The position numbers were made by a program, and so were the translations under genes. This document shows, one piece after another, positions 15,152 to 45,440 of a stretch of DNA of 64,000 nt; position 1 is the first letter of the stretch, and the number at the start of each line of letters is the position of its first letter. This DNA is from Desulfobacca acetoxidans DSM 11109 (GTDB lineage Bacteria; Desulfobacterota; Desulfobaccia; Desulfobaccales; Desulfobaccaceae): positions 2,666,001 through 2,730,000 of the forward strand of contig NC_015388.1 in the NCBI RefSeq assembly GCF_000195295.1, given 5' to 3'. The notes under the pieces were generated by a model that worked only from the letters and a program-made list of their open reading frames with translations, had not been told where the DNA came from and ran no database searches.

Positions 15152-15162
15152 ATAAAAGAATT

Positions 15163-15316
15163 CGTAATACTTCAGCTATCTGAGATAATAGATCAGGAAC
15201 ATGGTTGGCGGTGCCCACCCTACAGCACCGTAGCATCGACAGACCCGTCTGATAGGGGCGAATCTTGTGTTCGCCCCAAACAACTGATCTGTAGGGGCGA
15301 ATCTTGTATTCGACCC
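15163..15316 (+). repeat. M2-type repeat element with two palindromes
   Basis: Begins with CGTAATACTTCAG and follows the 45272 element for about 120 bases (including GAGATAATAGATCAGGAACA). It then has one core palindrome (15254-15277) and a second related copy at 15291-15316. The right terminal repeat seen at 45404 is absent, so this copy is altered at its end. Confidence 0.7.
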
Positions 15317-23467: not shown

Positions 23468-23493
23468 CTTCGGAGATTTCCGGCTTCGAGTTT

Positions 23494-23679
23494 CGTAATA
23501 CTTCAGCTATCTGAGATAATAGATCAGGAGCATGGTTGGCGGTGCCCACTCTACAGCACCAAAGCATCGACAGACCCATCTGTTGAATTGGGTAACTGAG
23601 GTGGTGCAGCCGCGACAGCACCCTACAGCACTAAAGCATTGACAGACCCGTCTGTAGGGGCGAATCTTGTATTCGCCCC
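23494..23679 (+). repeat. M2-type repeat element with internal duplication
   Basis: Starts CGTAATACTTCAGCTATCTG like the copies at 15163 and 45272. The CCTACAGCAC...AAAGCAT(C/T)GACAGACCC segment occurs twice (about 23550-23580 and 23620-23652), so the unit has an internal duplication. It ends with the core palindrome GTAGGGGCGAATCTTGTATT plus CGCCCC at 23654-23679. Confidence 0.7.
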
Positions 23680-32043: not shown

Positions 32044-32075
32044 TTGTCATTATGCCTACCCCGTCAAACGGAGAT

Positions 32076-32325
32076 CTCTTTTGCTGCAGGCGCGAATCTC
32101 GTATTCCCCCCGGCAAGAGGGACGAACACCAGGTTCTCCCCTACGGCTGCAGGCGCGAATCTCATATTCCCCCCGGCACGAGGAACGAACACCAGGTTCT
32201 CCCCTACAATGGAGATTTTTTTTGCGGTAGGGGCGAATCTCGTATTCCCCCCGGCAGGAGGGACGAACACCAGGTTCTCCCCTACGGCTGCAGGGGCGAA
32301 TCTCGTATTCCCCCCGGCGGATGGC
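32076..32325 (+). repeat. Tandem cluster of the GGGCGAATCT palindrome family
   Basis: Four imperfect units of about 66 bases follow one another. Each contains GCGAATCTCGTATTCCCCCC or a close variant (ATCTCATATT in the second) and then GACGAACACCAGGTTCTCCC. The joining piece GGAGATCTCTTTTGCTG also occurs next to the RAYT gene (38302 and 38839). Several reading frames are stop-free through the cluster, but I see no coding signal. The gap 32044-32432 otherwise holds one GGCGTCCCGCC-type palindrome near 32350. Confidence 0.8.
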
Positions 32326-32432
32326 AATATCTCTTTCCGCCTCATTGGTGGCCCAGGCGTCCCGCCTGTGCCCTGGCGGTCAACTCATAACTCGGAAATG
32401 CATCTGTCCATATTTTTCAGAGGCCCCGCATT

Positions 32433-35907: not shown

Positions 35908-37758
35908 ATGAACCGCCCTGCTGCCTTCGGTCCCGACCACCCCCATCCTCTCTCCACCATGAAGACCGAACTGGTCTGGGAGGGCAAATACGATGCATAC
36001 GGCAATCGCCGCCCCATCAAATTACCTGCTTCCCCCCTGCCCTTGCAGCGCATTGAGACCATCGACGAACCCCGGGACCGCAGCCGCTCCCAGGGGCTGT
36101 TATGGGAACCCGAGTCGGCCCACCGCGATGACTTCCGCAACCTCCTCATCTGGGGAGATAATAAACTCGCCCTGGCCGCCCTGCTGGAACAGTTCCGGGG
36201 CAAAATTGACCTGATTTACATCGACCCACCTTTCGATGTGGGGGCGGATTTCACCATGCAGGTGCAGCTCGGCGGAGAAGGCGAAGCATTACAGAAAGAA
36301 CAATCGATTCTCGAGGCGGTAGCCTACCGAGACACCTGGGGCAAGGGAACGGATTCTTATCTGCATATGATGTATGAGCGGCTGGTATTAATGAAAGATC
36401 TTTTAAGTGAGAGTGGTAATATATTTGTGCATTGTGACTGGAGAGTAAATAGCTACATCCGTTTACTGCTTGATGACATCTTAAGTGGGGATAACCATCA
36501 AAACGAACTTATTTGGATTTACTCGAGAATGGCCTCAAAAAATCAGCGTAACTTTAATAATACACATCAAACTATTTTTTGGTATCGGAAAGGACCAGGG
36601 TTTACTTTCAATGTTGACCAAGTAAGAACTGAATATGCCGAAAGCAGTAAAAAAAGAGCAGGTTATGCAAAAAAAGGTGTTGGAAGTGGTTTATTAAAAG
36701 AGGGTAGTGTGTGTGAGCTTCATGAAAAAGGTAAGTTTCCTGATGATTGGATGAGTATTCCCTTCGAGAGAAATGCAACCTACCAAACAGAAAAACCTGA
36801 AAATCTGCTCGATGTTATTATTAAGGCTGCTTCCAACGAAGGCGACCTCGTCGCCGACTTCTTCTGCGGCTCCGGCACCACCATGGCCGTCGCTGAAAAA
36901 CTAGGCCGCCGCTGGATTGGCGTGGACCTGGGCCGCTACGCCATCCACGTCAGCCGCAAACGCCTCATCCAGGTGCAGCGGGAACTCCACACCGCCGGCA
37001 AACCCTACCGCTCCTTCGATGTCTACAACCTGGGCCGCTACGAGCGCCAGTGGTGGCAGCTTGACCGGCTCAAGGGGGCCGACAGCGAACACCGGCGCCT
37101 TGTCCTGCAGTTTTACCAGGCCGCCCCCTTGGACAACCCGCCCCATCCGCTCCTGCACGGCAAGAAACATGGCGCCTTCGTGCATGTGGACCAGATAGAC
37201 AGCATCTTTGCCTTTGATGAGCTCAAGACGGCGGCCGAGGCGGCCAGATCGGCGGGGGGCCGGGAACTGCACTGCCTGGCCTGGGAATTTGAGATGGAGT
37301 TGGCCGCCAAAAAACAGGCCATCGAAGCGGAAACCGGCCTCACCGTCCGGCTGAAGTACATCCCCCGGGAGATCATGGAACCCAACCGCACCGCCTGCCA
37401 GTTCTTCGAAGCCGGCTACCTCGAGGCCAGGGCCATCAAAAAGGGCAAAAAAGTGGATGTGGAGCTGCTCCGCTTCACTCCGGCCCTGGCCGAGGCGCCA
37501 GAGGCGGAAATGTCGGCCCTGCGGGAACGGGCCATAAAATCCCCGTTTGATTTCATTGACTTCTGGGCCGTGGACTTCGACTGGCGGGACAACAAACCGT
37601 TTGAACATCACTGGCAGGATTTCCGCACCCGCAAGGACCGCTCCCTCAAGACCCGAACCGATCTGGGCTGGGAATATGACCACCAAGGCCCCCATCGGAT
37701 CTGCATCAAGGTGATCGACGTCTTTGGGGTGGACACCACCACAATAATTGCGGTGTAG
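35908..37758 (+). CDS. mod: Type III-like modification methyltransferase (Mod)
   Basis: About 616 residues. The catalytic motif Asp-Pro-Pro-Phe (106-109) precedes the SAM motif Phe-Phe-Cys-Gly-Ser-Gly-Thr-Thr (318-325), the beta-class N6-adenine order seen in type III Mod proteins. About 36380-36835, between the two motifs, is strikingly AT-rich against GC-rich flanks and probably encodes an exchanged target-recognition region. The start is uncertain: 35908 has GTGGAG before it; 35959 gives the family-like [10 protein letters not shown]; a TTG at 35812 is unlikely. The TAG stop is formed by the first bases of a repeat element. The Res partner lies 1.2 kb downstream beyond the RAYT cassette. 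Confidence 0.85.
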
Positions 37759-37912
37759 GGGCGAATCTTGTATTCGCCCCGCCAAAGAGGTTATTCATAC
37801 CGCGTAGGGGCGAATCTTGTATTCGCCCCGCCAATAATAGATTTTCCACATCCTGTTGGGGCGAACCACATATTCACCCGGCGTGATGGGCGAACACAAG
37901 GTTCGCCCCTAC
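37755..37912 (+). repeat. Left 158-bp direct repeat flanking the RAYT gene
   Basis: Contains two core palindromes (37755-37780 and 37804-37829), the spacer CAAAGAGGTTATTCATACCG, TTTTCCACATCCTGTTGGGG and a third arm ending GGTTCGCCCCTAC. It matches 38679-38836 base for base with about seven differences and the same length. Its second to fourth bases form the mod stop codon. Confidence 0.88.
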
Positions 37913-37941
37913 GGGGAGAGGATAGGTGCAAGGACAATAAA

Positions 37942-38682
37942 ATGAAACAGCGGCGTTCCATGCGCGTGGCGGGATATGATTACAGTCAACCGGGCGCATA
38001 TTTTATTACCATCTGTATTCAACATCGCCTCTGTCTGTTAGGCGACATCATTGAAGGGGTGATGAATCTAAATGAAGCAGGAGAAATGGTCCGCCATGCC
38101 TGGGAAGATTTGCCCCTAAGATTTCCCTTTATGACACCGGACATTTCGGTGGTCATGCCCAATCATTTTCATTGCATTTTTTTATTTACCGGGTTGGGTA
38201 GGACCGAACCCCATATTCCCCCCGACAATAACAGATTTTCCACATCCCGTAGGGGCGAACCCCATATTCCCCCCGACGTGATGGGCGAACACAAGGTTCG
38301 CCCCTACAACGGAGATCTCTTTTGCTGTAGGGGCGAATCTTGTATTCGCCCTGACGAGAAGGTTCGCCCCGACGGGGGTTGGCCAGGAGGGACAGCAAAC
38401 GATTCTGTTGGACGCATAATACAAACATTCAAATCCATCACGACTTTGGCTTATATTTCCGGGGTCAAGAATCGTGGATGGCCTCCGTTTTCGAAAAGAT
38501 TCTGGCAAAGAAATTATTATGACCATGTGGTACGTGATGAGGCAGCATTGAATCGAATCCGAGAGTACGTTGTGTCAAACCCGTTGAGATGGCATCTTGA
38601 TCGTGAAAATCCGCAACCGCAGGGACAGGATGATTTCGACATATGGTTGAATCAATTTCCCCGATCATCCATGCCTCTATAG
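37942..38682 (+). CDS. REP-associated tyrosine transposase (RAYT, Y1 family)
   Basis: 246 residues of the IS200-like Y1 transposase superfamily. Tyr-Asp-Tyr-Ser-Gln-Pro-Gly-Ala-Tyr-Phe-Ile-Thr at the N-terminus; metal-binding His75-Phe-His77 in Met-Pro-Asn-His-Phe-His; C-terminal Asn-Tyr-Tyr-Asp-His-Val-Val (Tyr192/Tyr193 are nucleophile candidates), then Tyr-Val-Val-Ser-Asn-Pro. RAYTs cut and join single-stranded DNA at REP palindromes and are normally single-copy domesticated genes. Between the HFH motif and the C-terminal domain, about 62 residues (88-150) are translated from inserted palindrome repeats. The stop codon comes from the right flanking repeat. It is inserted between mod and res. 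Confidence 0.88.
   Translation: MKQRRSMRVAGYDYSQPGAYFITICIQHRLCLLGDIIEGVMNLNEAGEMVRHAWEDLPLRFPFMTPDISVVMPNHFHCIFLFTGLGRTEPHIPPDNNRFSTSRRGEPHIPPDVMGEHKVRPYNGDLFCCRGESCIRPDEKVRPDGGWPGGTANDSVGRIIQTFKSITTLAYISGVKNRGWPPFSKRFWQRNYYDHVVRDEAALNRIREYVVSNPLRWHLDRENPQPQGQDDFDIWLNQFPRSSMPL
38206..38390 (+). repeat. Palindrome repeats inside the RAYT coding region
   Basis: Successive diverged palindrome units (for example TTTTCCACATCCCGTAGGGG, GGTTCGCCCCTACAACGGAG and GGGGCGAATCTTGTATTCGC) fill this part of the gene without breaking the frame. The translated product is Arg/Pro/Gly-rich and unlike other RAYTs. Confidence 0.85.
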
Positions 38683-38836
38683 GGGCGAATCTTGTATTCG
38701 CCCCGGCAAAGAGGTTATTCATACCGCGTAGGGGCAAATCTCGTATTCCCCCCGCCAATAACAGATTATCCACATCCTGTTGGGGCGAACCACATATTCA
38801 CCCGGCGTGATGGGCGAACACAAGGTTCGCCCCTAC
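38679..38836 (+). repeat. Right 158-bp direct repeat flanking the RAYT gene
   Basis: Same length and order as 37755-37912, with small differences (G/A at base 1, C/G in the spacer, changed bases in the second palindrome). TAG at 38680-38682 is the RAYT stop codon. Confidence 0.88.
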
Positions 38837-38854
38837 AACGGAGATCTCTTTTGC

Positions 38855-38932
38855 TGTAGGGGCGAATCTTGTATTCGCCCCGCCAATAACAGATTTTCCA
38901 CATCCCGTAGGGGCGAATCTTGTATTCGCCCC
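38855..38932 (+). repeat. Two further core palindromes before res
   Basis: GTAGGGGCGAATCTTGTATT plus CGCCCC occurs at 38855-38880 and again at 38908-38932, joined by CAATAACAGATTTTCCACAT. The cluster ends about 50 bases before the res start. Confidence 0.85.
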
Positions 38933-38985
38933 GACAATAGACGCGCGGGGGAAAATAGAAAGCCCGTTCGCAAGCGAGGAGATCT

Positions 38986-41900
38986 ATGGCTTTCGAGGTA
39001 AACGAAAAAAATCTTGCCGCCCTGGAGCCGCTGTTCAACCCCTGGGAAGAACCCCTCCGTCACCGTCTGCCGAACCCCATGCCCGGCGGTCCGGCCATCA
39101 TCCAGCCGGGGCGGCGGCCGAGCAAATGTTCTCTGGTCCGCAGCATCCGGGCGGAAGTGGACGGCTGGCGCCAGGGCGGCTACGCCGGCGTCAGCCAAAC
39201 CTCCCGCACCCTGCTCACTTATTGGTTCAGTACCGAACACGAAATCCGCGATGAGGCCGGCAACGCCATCCCCTTCCGCTACCACTGGGCCCAACGGGAA
39301 GCCATTGAGACCATCATCTACCTCTATGAACTGCGAAATATCAAAAGCCTGGCGGAGATGATGACGGAATTCGGCGGCGGCAGCCTGAATGACCTGGCCC
39401 TGGGCCTCAACCCGGAGGAAGACCGCTGGCCCCGGAACTGCTGCAAGGTGGCCACCGGCGGCGGCAAGACCAAGGTGATGAGCCTGGCGATAGTCTGGAG
39501 CTACTTCCACCGCCTGTACGAACCGGGCTCCGACCTGGCCCGGCACTTTGTCATCATTGCCCCCAACCTGACGGTCTATGAACGCCTGAAAGATGATTTT
39601 GAAAACTGCGTCGTTTTTTATCACGACCCGCTGCTGCCGGAGGAATGGAAGTCTGATTTTCAGGTGCAGGTAGTACTGCAGGATGAGCCGGGCGGGGCCA
39701 GCACCGGCGGCGCCGTCTACCTGACCAATATCCACCGCCTGTATGAATCGCGGGTTAACGGCGGCGGCACAGAGGCCGAGGGCGTGGCCGCTATCTTCGG
39801 CCCGCCAGTGAAGCGGGCCCAGGCTCTGGACACCGGCGCGGCGCTGAGGGAACGGATCACTCGCCATCCCCGGCTGATGGTGCTCAATGATGAGGCCCAC
39901 CACCTGCATGACCCCGACCTGGCCTGGAACAAGGCCATCGAGGCGCTGCACCGCCAGAGCGTTAGCCGGGGCAACGGCGGCGTCTGTCTGCAACTGGACT
40001 TCACCGCCACCCCCAAGCATACCAACGGCGAGCTGTTCCACCATATCGTCTGCGACTTCCCCCTGGGTGAGGCAGTGGACGCCGGGATCGTCAAGGTGCC
40101 GGTCCTGGGTGAATCCGATGAACTTGTGGAGCGGGGCAATAAGCGAACCCCGGCCCGCCAACGCTACGCCAACCACCTGAATCTCGGCTACCAGCGTTAT
40201 GAAAAGACCTATGCGGAATGGAACCGAGTGCGCAAACCGATCCTGTTCGTCATGACCGAAGACGCCCAGGCCGCCAATGAAATTGCCGACTACCTGGACA
40301 GCGACACCTTCCCTCTCCTTAAAGGCCGGGTCCTCAACATCCACACCCGCCTGAAAGGCAAGGTGAAAACTGTCAAACGCGGCGGACGGGAAATCAAGGA
40401 ATTCGTCGAAAACGAGACCGCCATGAAACCGGATGACCTCCGGGCCTTGCGGGAGATGTCCCGGGAGTTGGACGCCAAAGACAGCAAGTTCCGCTGCGTG
40501 GTTTCCGTGATGATGCTCCGGGAGGGCTGGGACGTGCGCAACGTCACCACCATCGTACCTTTGCGCCCCTATTCCGCCAAGGCGGGGATTCTCCCGGAAC
40601 AGACCCTGGGCCGCGGCCTGCGCCGCATGTTCCCGGCCGCCGGCATCCCGGAAATGGTGACGGTGGTACACCATCCGGCGTTCCGTAAACTCTATGAGGA
40701 GGAGCTGGCCCAGGAGGGGGTGGATATCGGCTACCTGCCTATCCGGGAAGTCTTCAAACAGACGGTGACCATCTTTGTCGACCGCGCCAACAAGCCGGTG
40801 GCAGACCTGGAAATAGAACTCCCGCTCATCTCCGATGCCGTGGAAACCATTGCCGAGCTCCAGGGCTTAACCTTTGCGGCGGTGCGGCGCTATTTCCAGG
40901 AGCGTTACAGCCCCCTGCCCGTCGGCCGGAGAAAAACAGGCCCGGTGGAGTACAAAGAACGCCATCTCTTCACCGATGAAGTCGTCGCCCGGATGCAGTT
41001 GGATGCCGGCCTCCTGACCAACGCCTGGTCGGCGGCAGGGTATTTCGCCCAGATGCTCGGCCGGGCCTGTCGTCTGAGCAACCCGCACCAGATATTGACG
41101 CCCCTCGTGGAGGAGTTCCTCGGCAAGGTGCTGTTCGAGCGCGAGGTGGACCTCTTTTCCGGAGAAGTGGACCACCGCATGCGGGAGGTCGACGTTATGG
41201 AGCACGTTCGGGCCACCTTTACCCCATTAATTCTGAGCCGCACGGTCAAGAAGAAAGAACGCCAGCGGATCAGCCGGGGACAGCGCCTTTCCACCTGGAA
41301 ACCATACCAGGCCAGCAGCACCGAAAAGCGTCCGGCGGTCACGGCGCGACGCACCATGTTCAACCTGGCGCCTTGCGAAAATGAATTTGAGCAGGAATTC
41401 GCCGATTTCTGCGACTTTGCCGATGATATCAGGGCCTTCGCCAAAAACGCCGGACCGCAAAAGCTGATGATTGACTATCTGAAACCCGACGGTCATCGCG
41501 CCCACTATATCCCCGACTTTTTTGTAGGTCTCAAAGAGGGCGATTACCTGCTAGTGGAACTGAAAGGCAAACAGGACAACCTGGTTCCCCTCAAAGCCAG
41601 AACGGCGGTGGAATGGTGCCGGGCGGCCTCCCAGGGAAAGGTCAGGTGGCGTTACCTTTATGTTCCCTACTACCTCTTTCAACAGAGTGCTCCGGCCACC
41701 CTGGAGGAACTGCGGCGCGCCTGCGAGCCCTCCCTCAAAACGCTGCTTGATGAAGAAAAATCGAGACAGGCCCGGCTCCCTTTGGAAGAGGCCACCGCCC
41801 AACAGGAAGCAGAAGACCGGTTTACCGCCGTCCTGCAGCAGGCGGGTATGTCGTCAGCACCCGCGGCGCTGGCAGATTCCCTGCGCCAGGCGGTCCATCT

Positions 41901-42411
41901 CCTGGATTATGCCGTACGGGCCGGAATGCAGGATCTCAGCCATGCGTTTCAACCGTTATTACGCCCGCTGGATGAATATGCCATAAAGCTCTTGGAAAAC
42001 CGCCTGCGGCCTTGCCTCCCGCCGGACACTGCCTCCCAATGGGCCTATTTCAGTCCATATCTCGAAGACCTGCCCAAAAAAGAACAGATGTTGTTATCCC
42101 GCTATCAGAAATATCTGCGCGGTTATCTGGTCTTTGGCCGTCCGATCTTCAAGGTCGGCCTGCTCCTCTATTGTATCGACTATGCCCAAGGGGGCGGCCA
42201 TCGAACCGGGGGTGTTTGGGCCGACGTAGAAAAATGCTTCGCCGACCAGGCCATGGCTGAACTCTTTACTATCCTCAAACCGGTAACGGCATTCCGCAAT
42301 ACCCGGGTAGCGCATGTGGAAACCAAACTGGACAACCCCGATGAGGCCTGGAAAGCTATGGTTGACTGGTGCCGCTGCCTGGGCCGAATGGCCGGTTTAA
42401 CGTATGGTTAA
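38986..42411 (+). CDS. res: Type III-like restriction endonuclease subunit (Res), helicase-nuclease with extra C-terminal domain
   Basis: 1141 residues. Superfamily 2 helicase core with Walker A Thr-Gly-Gly-Gly-Lys-Thr (157-162) and Asn-Asp-Glu-Ala-His-His (301-306) as motif II. A PD-(D/E)xK nuclease follows, with Pro843-Asp844 and Glu858-Leu-Lys860. It resembles the BPTD_3080-type restriction endonuclease family. Residues about 900-1141 form an additional helical domain whose end holds Phe-Arg1104-Asn-x4-His1110, an R-N-x4-H arrangement as in HEPN ribonuclease motifs. The partner Mod is upstream of the RAYT cassette. A ribosome site (GAGGAG) lies before the ATG. Expected role: ATP-dependent cleavage of unmethylated DNA. 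Confidence 0.85.
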   Translation: MAFEVNEKNLAALEPLFNPWEEPLRHRLPNPMPGGPAIIQPGRRPSKCSLVRSIRAEVDGWRQGGYAGVSQTSRTLLTYWFSTEHEIRDEAGNAIPFRYHWAQREAIETIIYLYELRNIKSLAEMMTEFGGGSLNDLALGLNPEEDRWPRNCCKVATGGGKTKVMSLAIVWSYFHRLYEPGSDLARHFVIIAPNLTVYERLKDDFENCVVFYHDPLLPEEWKSDFQVQVVLQDEPGGASTGGAVYLTNIHRLYESRVNGGGTEAEGVAAIFGPPVKRAQALDTGAALRERITRHPRLMVLNDEAHHLHDPDLAWNKAIEALHRQSVSRGNGGVCLQLDFTATPKHTNGELFHHIVCDFPLGEAVDAGIVKVPVLGESDELVERGNKRTPARQRYANHLNLGYQRYEKTYAEWNRVRKPILFVMTEDAQAANEIADYLDSDTFPLLKGRVLNIHTRLKGKVKTVKRGGREIKEFVENETAMKPDDLRALREMSRELDAKDSKFRCVVSVMMLREGWDVRNVTTIVPLRPYSAKAGILPEQTLGRGLRRMFPAAGIPEMVTVVHHPAFRKLYEEELAQEGVDIGYLPIREVFKQTVTIFVDRANKPVADLEIELPLISDAVETIAELQGLTFAAVRRYFQERYSPLPVGRRKTGPVEYKERHLFTDEVVARMQLDAGLLTNAWSAAGYFAQMLGRACRLSNPHQILTPLVEEFLGKVLFEREVDLFSGEVDHRMREVDVMEHVRATFTPLILSRTVKKKERQRISRGQRLSTWKPYQASSTEKRPAVTARRTMFNLAPCENEFEQEFADFCDFADDIRAFAKNAGPQKLMIDYLKPDGHRAHYIPDFFVGLKEGDYLLVELKGKQDNLVPLKARTAVEWCRAASQGKVRWRYLYVPYYLFQQSAPATLEELRRACEPSLKTLLDEEKSRQARLPLEEATAQQEAEDRFTAVLQQAGMSSAPAALADSLRQAVHLLDYAVRAGMQDLSHAFQPLLRPLDEYAIKLLENRLRPCLPPDTASQWAYFSPYLEDLPKKEQMLLSRYQKYLRGYLVFGRPIFKVGLLLYCIDYAQGGGHRTGGVWADVEKCFADQAMAELFTILKPVTAFRNTRVAHVETKLDNPDEAWKAMVDWCRCLGRMAGLTYG

Positions 42412-44937: not shown

Positions 44938-44965
44938 TGAGGGCGAATACAAGATTCGCCCCTAC
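44938..44965 (-). repeat. Single core palindrome after gdhA
   Basis: GAGGGCGAATACAAGATTCG followed by CCCCTAC, the reverse complement of the common core. It lies 35 bases after the gdhA stop. Confidence 0.7.
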
Positions 44966-45146: not shown

Positions 45147-45440
45147 ACTAATTTAACATCAAAGTTAGAGTTTAGCACAAATGACTTAAAGATCGATTAA
45201 ATAAGGTGGAACAGGCTTCCAGCCTGTTCAATATTGCACAGGCGGGACGCCTGTGCCACCGATAGTTTTTTCGTAATACTTCAGCTATCTGAGATAATAA
45301 ATCAGGAACATGATTGACGGTGCCCACCCTACAGCACCGTAGCATCGACAGACCCGTCTGTAGGGGCGAATCTTGTATTCGCCCCAAACAACTGAAGTGT
45401 TACGTTTTTTCAATTACTCTATATTTGACATCAAATTAGT
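45147..45440. repeat. MITE-like element M1, copy interrupted by M2
   Basis: The reverse complement of 24826-24979 matches along its whole length with scattered changes, except that 133 bases (45272-45404) are inserted in a T-run. The ends read ACTAATTTAACATCAAAGTT and ...TTGACATCAAATTAGT. TA occurs at both outer borders (45146-45147, 45440-45441), compatible with a TA target duplication. Confidence 0.82.
45272..45404 (+). repeat. M2 element with terminal inverted repeats and target duplication
   Basis: 133 bases bounded by CGTAATACTTCAG (45272-45284) and CTGAAGTGTTACG (45392-45404), inverted repeats of 13 bases with one mismatch. Six T residues flank it on each side (45266-45271, 45405-45410), while the empty site at 24856-24860 has a single run of five. 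The core palindrome lies at 45360-45385. Confidence 0.85.

Follow-up and report, generated by a model that had tools for sequence, protein, structure and literature searches.

A RAYT gene with in-frame REP palindromes separates the two genes of a type III-like restriction-modification pair in Desulfobacca acetoxidans

Introduction

RAYTs (TnpAREP) are described, in the available portions of two papers (PMC8266576, PMC6006769), as single-copy, domesticated transposases that cleave and rejoin single-stranded REPs, and those portions record no evidence of mobility. Within this family, the part of Quentin et al. 2018 (PMC6006769) that treats TnpAREP subclass 2.4 reports tnpAREP genes that carry REPs inside them, between the HuH and Y motifs, with the reading frame kept. 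The available part of Di Nocera et al. 2013 (PMC3733652), on GTAG-tagged REPs, reports that the feet of REPs often give stop codons.

In this study we analyzed a stretch of 64,000 nucleotides (the window) from the Desulfobacca acetoxidans genome. An earlier note on this DNA had described a RAYT gene framed by two 158-bp direct repeats and inserted between mod and res, and had proposed that the unit is a transposable or exchangeable cassette. In the literature searched, we found no earlier description of a RAYT in this position between mod and res.

Results

An intact RAYT gene with a predicted disordered loop

The features of the locus are collected in Table 1. Comparison of the RAYT with NCBIfam yielded NF047646 (REP_Tyr_transpos) at 1.4e-15, with a score of 57.4 bits that is under the cut-off of 80 and a match that is split in two by an insert; a Pfam search of the protein returned no family. 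A profile of 35 relatives matched E. coli TnpAREP (4er8) at 9.9e-07, with the HuH and Y regions aligned. The best PDB fold match of the predicted structure was also 4er8, a complex of the E. coli RAYT with a REP hairpin (3.8e-06), and IS200/IS605 transposases came next, those of IS608 and ISDra2 being among the matches. The protein has the HuH-Y1 fold with conserved HuH and Y by which a TnpAREP is recognized, and its WQ region reads WQRNYY. Y209 is the candidate catalytic residue.

In the predicted structure (mean pLDDT, 77.9), most of the core scores above 90, and residues 88-147 form a loop in which most values are below 50. This loop of about 60 residues is the translation of a REP array that lies in frame within the RAYT open reading frame, just behind the HuH motif. 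According to the model, translation of the internal array gives a disordered loop that connects two folded parts of the enzyme. The E. coli protein shares the fold and the positions of HuH and Y but is a 165-residue chain that lacks this loop.

Table 1. Positions of the features in the window
Feature	Position	Strand	Remarks
Related REP array without a RAYT	32060..32340	+	Seven units in alternating orientation; 5.4 kb upstream
mod, DNA methylase of the type III-like restriction-modification pair	35959..37758	+	Pfam N6_N4_Mtase, 4e-44
Left REP array (the left direct repeat), units 1-4	37755..37912	+	Units at 37755 (+), 37804 (+), 37855 (+, degenerate) and 37887 (-)
RAYT (TnpAREP), 246 aa, intact ORF	37942..38682	+	NF047646, 4er8 profile and fold matches
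HuH motif NHFH, residues 74-77	38161..38172	+	N74, H75 and H77 invariant in 35 sequences
Internal REP array, units 2-5 and a degenerate remnant	38198..38377	+	Units at 38198 (+, degenerate), 38249 (+), 38282 (-) and 38327 (+)
Candidate catalytic tyrosine Y209 in YVVSNP	38566..38568	+	Invariant in 35 sequences; aligned with the YIYINP stretch of 4er8
Right REP array, units 1-6, opening with the right direct repeat (157 bp)	38680..38932	+	Units at 38679 (+), 38728 (+), 38779 (+, degenerate), 38811 (-), 38856 (+) and 38907 (+)
Non-REP spacer before res	38933..38985	+	GAGGAG ribosome-binding-like stretch; read from sequence
res, intact gene for the restriction subunit of the type III-like pair	38986..42411	+	Pfam ResIII, 1.3e-16

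Three REP arrays share one orientation and register

The earlier note had reported two direct repeats of equal length with about seven differences. This was confirmed, since 37755-37912 and 38679-38836 differ at 7 of 158 bp. Counted from the stop codons (37756-37912 and 38680-38836), there are 6 differences in 157 bp, and both 157-bp repeats have a TAG stop codon as their exact first bases (mod, 37756-37758; RAYT, 38680-38682) and CTAC as their last. The stop of mod is supplied by the first REP of the left array and that of the RAYT by the first REP of the right array, which has ATAG, not GTAG. The repeats had also been said to flank the RAYT gene exactly; in fact the right repeat begins at the RAYT stop codon, and the left repeat stops 29 bp short of the ATG.

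Two features had been missed: a third array in the same register, inside the RAYT gene, and the extension of the right array to about 38932. The left, internal and right arrays share a single orientation and register. Left and right are 96% identical over 157 bp, internal and right 91% over 154 bp, and left and internal 86% over 110 bp; one stretch of 75 bp in the internal array has an exact counterpart in the flanking arrays. Because the arrays comprise units 1-4, 2-5 and 1-6 of this register, the 158 bp represent the overlap of two differently trimmed arrays and not a natural unit, and because the same array is also found inside the RAYT gene, the direct repeats are not special ends. The REP palindromes are not due to chance, as a 25-mer with up to 3 mismatches gave 20 matches in the 64-kb window and 0 in 100 shuffles. 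The description of the gene as a RAYT with its own REP arrays is borne out.

The note had allowed for the possibility that the repeats resemble dispersed copies as much as they resemble each other. A search of the genome with the 158-bp left repeat, in which 40 of 112 first-look candidates were scored, listed 66 matches. At the locus, besides the query itself, these were the right copy at 96% identity, a 110-bp stretch within the RAYT gene at 86% and 82-84 bp from the right array at 88%. Among the listed matches outside the locus, those of at least 60 bp were at most 82% identical, and those more than 82% identical were at most 49 bp long. Long matches of high identity are confined to the locus, and the two repeats therefore resemble each other much more than they do any of the dispersed copies listed.

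The related array upstream is 83% identical to the internal array over 101 bp and 71% identical to the right array over 229 bp; it is flanked by a methyltransferase-like gene and a histidine kinase gene. We also noted a 91-bp repeat, 95-97% identical, that occurs shortly before REPs at three sites of the window (15161-15251, 23492-23582 and 45270-45360).

Internal REPs in other RAYTs

In order to compare the linker behind the HuH motif across RAYTs, 110 sources were assembled: the window, 80 loci (the best 80 of 521) and 29 loci of the same genome and its relatives. An ORF with the motif signature was obtained from 96 of them and not from the other 14. Removal of 5 duplicates or near-duplicates and of 2 sequences without a motif left 89 RAYTs; trees were built from 88, L075 also being left out. 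The L075 locus (G005) has a 429-codon frame in which the first half of the RAYT occurs twice and linker stretches are repeated.

An exact match of at least 14 nt between the linker and its own flanks (up to 6 kb) exists in 41 of the 89 RAYTs; the remaining 48 have none. The corresponding counts were 41/445 for the flanks of other loci, 9/89 for the last parts of the RAYTs and 12/89 for their first parts, the latter control being slightly too high in that the "first part" of the window RAYT reaches into the left array. On these counts, having cognate REPs inside the gene is a general trait of this RAYT group, which agrees with what Quentin et al. 2018 (PMC6006769) report for subclass 2.4. That the REPs are in frame is partly selected for, because the motif signature favors open reading frames. 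The RAYT stop codon lies in the foot of a REP-like hairpin in 13 of the 89 RAYTs, compared with 20 of 499 other long ORFs of the same loci, which accords with the statement on REP feet and stop codons in PMC3733652.

The REP is dispersed in the genome and patchy among relatives

A REP 22-mer gave 159 matches in the D. acetoxidans genome with up to 3 mismatches (reversed control, 0) and 127 copies with up to 2. GT[AG]G-tagged palindromes border the RAYT gene on both sides and are scattered over the genome, and there is one full-length tnpAREP gene for this REP type, in single copy, as expected of a REPtron. A single further RAYT was found in the genome; it is 47-59% identical over parts and has a different REP, located inside the gene and at its stop codon; that REP is common to the congeners at low copy.

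Among the 59 genomes surveyed with the 22-mer (up to 2 mismatches), 14 have any copy. The congeners G001-G003 have none, and three sister-genus genomes have 0, 1 and 0; within the same order, there are 19-113 copies in seven g6 genomes, 24 in one g8 genome and 14-16 in two g11 genomes. Since the REP is absent from three congeners and reaches 113 copies in other genera of the order, it looks acquired. This patchiness, together with the presence of the second RAYT's REP in the congeners, fits the arrival of the first RAYT by horizontal transfer, which is the probable route.

REPs are denser in the surroundings of the RAYT: the other 62.7 kb of the window hold 11 REP copies where 2.7 would be expected, with a P value (1.2e-04) that is too strong because the copies form only 6 clusters. 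A strand bias of REPs along the genome, hinted at among the places listed, was not used; an exact copy at window position 44941 (-) is missing from those places.

REP type and the RAYT tree

In the tree of 88 RAYT cores, the window protein groups with L070-L073 (support, 100/91) and not with the clade L074/L069/L114/L092/L115. L070-L073 use another REP type, and the REP of the window RAYT is abundant in genomes that carry the latter clade. It is absent from G011 and G025, which carry only the L070-L073 clade among the matches listed. Linker types, defined by our own peptide patterns as were the REP types, follow the RAYT tree with 19 changes, compared with 42-55 in 200 shuffles; the linker type of the window RAYT accounts for 4 changes, compared with 9-12. 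With the protein in one clade, its REP in the other and linker types that track the tree, the REP type may have changed, and the window lineage may have changed it inside and outside the gene alike. This suggestion is tentative, given the long branch of the window sequence and a classification of types that is our own.

We also asked whether the RAYT could be a chimera whose halves, joined at the internal array, derive from the two clades. The half-trees point that way, the first half grouping with L074/L069/L114/L092/L115 (82/82) and the second with L070-L073 (89/84). Against this, the AU tests are not significant for either alternative (p, 0.077 and 0.135), the window protein sides with the two clades at clade-separating sites in ratios of 5:3 (first half) and 12:6 (second half; Fisher p = 1), and the whole-core tree favors a single affiliation. 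A chimeric origin is very improbable and was rejected on the site counts and the nonsignificant AU tests.

At the four loci L070-L073 (G025, G020, G011 and G014), the RAYT frame continues through a REP (CGTAGGGGCGGACC...) into the next ORF, giving 325-356 codons in 4/4 cases. The ORF behind the RAYT there resembles YraN (UPF0102).

The mod-res junction is uninterrupted in near relatives

The nearest res among 198 genomes, 80% identical, belongs to L097/L098, a single contig that is included in two MAGs of different families, which leaves its host uncertain. Its mod is 86% identical to that of the window over the last 85 aa and 66% over 499, and at its junction the mod stop TGA is followed by GCC and then by the res ATG, with no REP and no RAYT. 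For viral contigs and plasmids, res was the sole query. The plasmid search gave two matches, at 34-35%, and the viral contigs gave one partial locus, the IMG/VR contig L225, which has a mod of 70% identity and the same TGA GCC ATG, again with no REP; its res match ends after 28 codons. At L225 1009-3075, a mod gene is followed by this 28-codon res stub, as if an orphan methylase had been left. The window tracks L098/L097 and L225 up to the GTG at the end of mod and then becomes REP TAGGGGCG; from the last shared mod codon to the res start there is about 1.2 kb. The mod-res junction without the insert, proposed in the note as something to look for in relatives, thus exists, and these adjoining junctions uphold the view that the RAYT interrupts the usual pair, by gain at the boundary.

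In distant pairs (res, about 32-37%), mod and res adjoin or nearly adjoin in L104, L111/L196, L193 and L194, and other genes occupy the same boundary in L101 (KilA-N), L102 (Zeta-like), L103 (Bro-N) and L110 (nucleotidyltransferase plus HEPN). Taken together, the adjoining form in near and distant pairs and the different genes in these four make direct adjacency the likely ancestral state for the near relatives and mark the mod/res boundary as a place where genes have been gained more than once. Elsewhere, AbiEi/AbiEii is found directly before res in L109, and two small ORFs part the halves of a mod homologue at L200 1501-3996.

Discussion

The locus is very probably a REPtron that fits TnpAREP subclass 2.4 and was gained at the mod/res boundary. 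The likeness to subclass 2.4, as far as the consulted part of PMC6006769 describes it, extends to the NH[IFV]H and WQ motifs (here, NHFH and WQ), GTAG REPs on both sides and in-frame REPs between HuH and Y. The Y motif YVVSNP differs from the YIxNNP given there at the I and at the first N. In contrast to that description, the internal array here follows the register of the arrays on either side, and the mod-res pair that the unit splits is seen without an insert in relatives. With the GTAG-tagged REPs of PMC3733652 the locus shares a REP foot that serves as a neighbor's stop codon, in-frame intragenic REPs and a RAYT flanked by cognate REPs; the REP-carrying genes named in the available part of that paper are not RAYTs, whereas here it is the RAYT that carries the REPs. 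The protein shares the HuH-Y1 fold with IS200/IS605 transposases, from which the locus differs in having REP arrays instead of defined left and right ends and in its single copy. Several points count against this explanation: the NCBIfam score under its cut-off, the lack of a Pfam family, the deviating Y motif, the unsure host of L098/L097, the viral-collection origin and shortened res of L225, the 48 RAYTs whose linker has no match in its flanks, and the non-REP spacer before res.

By analogy with described RAYTs, the enzyme would cut and rejoin single-stranded REPs in trans, and both the local arrays and the copies scattered over the genome would arise in this way. Neighboring arrays would then undergo copying or gene conversion, whether through the RAYT or through ordinary recombination, which would make the near-identical direct repeats and would keep the internal array matched to its flanks. 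An internal array would be tolerated because it is predicted to encode a disordered loop between two folded halves. If the arrays are copies produced by duplication and exchange, the 158-bp repeats would be products of array duplication and not transposon ends.

This explanation leaves the way of entry open and overlaps with the routes considered here. The earlier note's proposal, that array, RAYT and array arrived at the junction together and can be lost from it by recombination between the arrays, is consistent with the adjoining, remnant-free junctions of the nearest relatives and with a single array bounding the unit on both sides. Of that proposal, the RAYT with its own arrays, the closeness of the two repeats and the gain at the boundary stand; for movement as a unit, the key signs, a second copy or a solo array, were not found in the genome or the relatives searched. 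As with an insertion sequence, relatives have the site without the element (L098/L097, L225), but further copies at other loci were found neither in the genome itself nor among the listed matches of relatives, no RAYT relative above 48% identity over its length is among the matches listed (59 genomes; best 80 of 521; 395 genomes), no solo array marks the L098/L097 or L225 junction, and no target-site duplication or preferred target was recognized by eye in comparison with L098 and L225. Loss by recombination between the repeats is possible in principle and has left no trace in the relatives seen. We therefore regard entry as a mobile cassette as unlikely. We consider equally doubtful the broader proposition that a subclass 2.4 REPtron can enter a site whole, as array-RAYT-array, with the internal array evolving in concert with its flanks so that REP type is exchanged jointly.

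An origin in two steps, in which a REP array came to lie at the end of mod and the RAYT followed by homologous recombination between arrays, creating the direct repeats, is a serious possibility, though it falls short of being probable. It agrees with the frequent supply of stop codons by REP feet noted in the available part of PMC3733652, with the RAYT-free array upstream, and with the common register and the exact 75-bp stretch, as expected from exchange. No relative with a bare array at the junction was found among the few available. We judge that two steps account for the locus at least as well as a moving cassette. It is improbable, by comparison, that the restriction pair entered the genome with the RAYT already inside. 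The pair is itself patchy, since res (E values up to 1e-100) is missing in the congeners G001 and G003, which favors such an arrival; on the other hand, the 159 REP near-matches imply long RAYT action in this genome, and no donor with the combined arrangement was found.

Because in-frame internal REPs are already described for subclass 2.4 in the available part of PMC6006769, the central oddity of the locus is known, and what is new is the particular case. With a REPtron at a junction whose empty form occurs in relatives, the gain of REPtrons can be studied at a well-defined site. Its three same-register arrays, one of them translated within the enzyme, allow us to ask whether the RAYT or ordinary recombination keeps arrays alike and by what route a RAYT switches to another REP type. 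Should none of this be borne out, the locus is still an ordinary, well-delimited REPtron.
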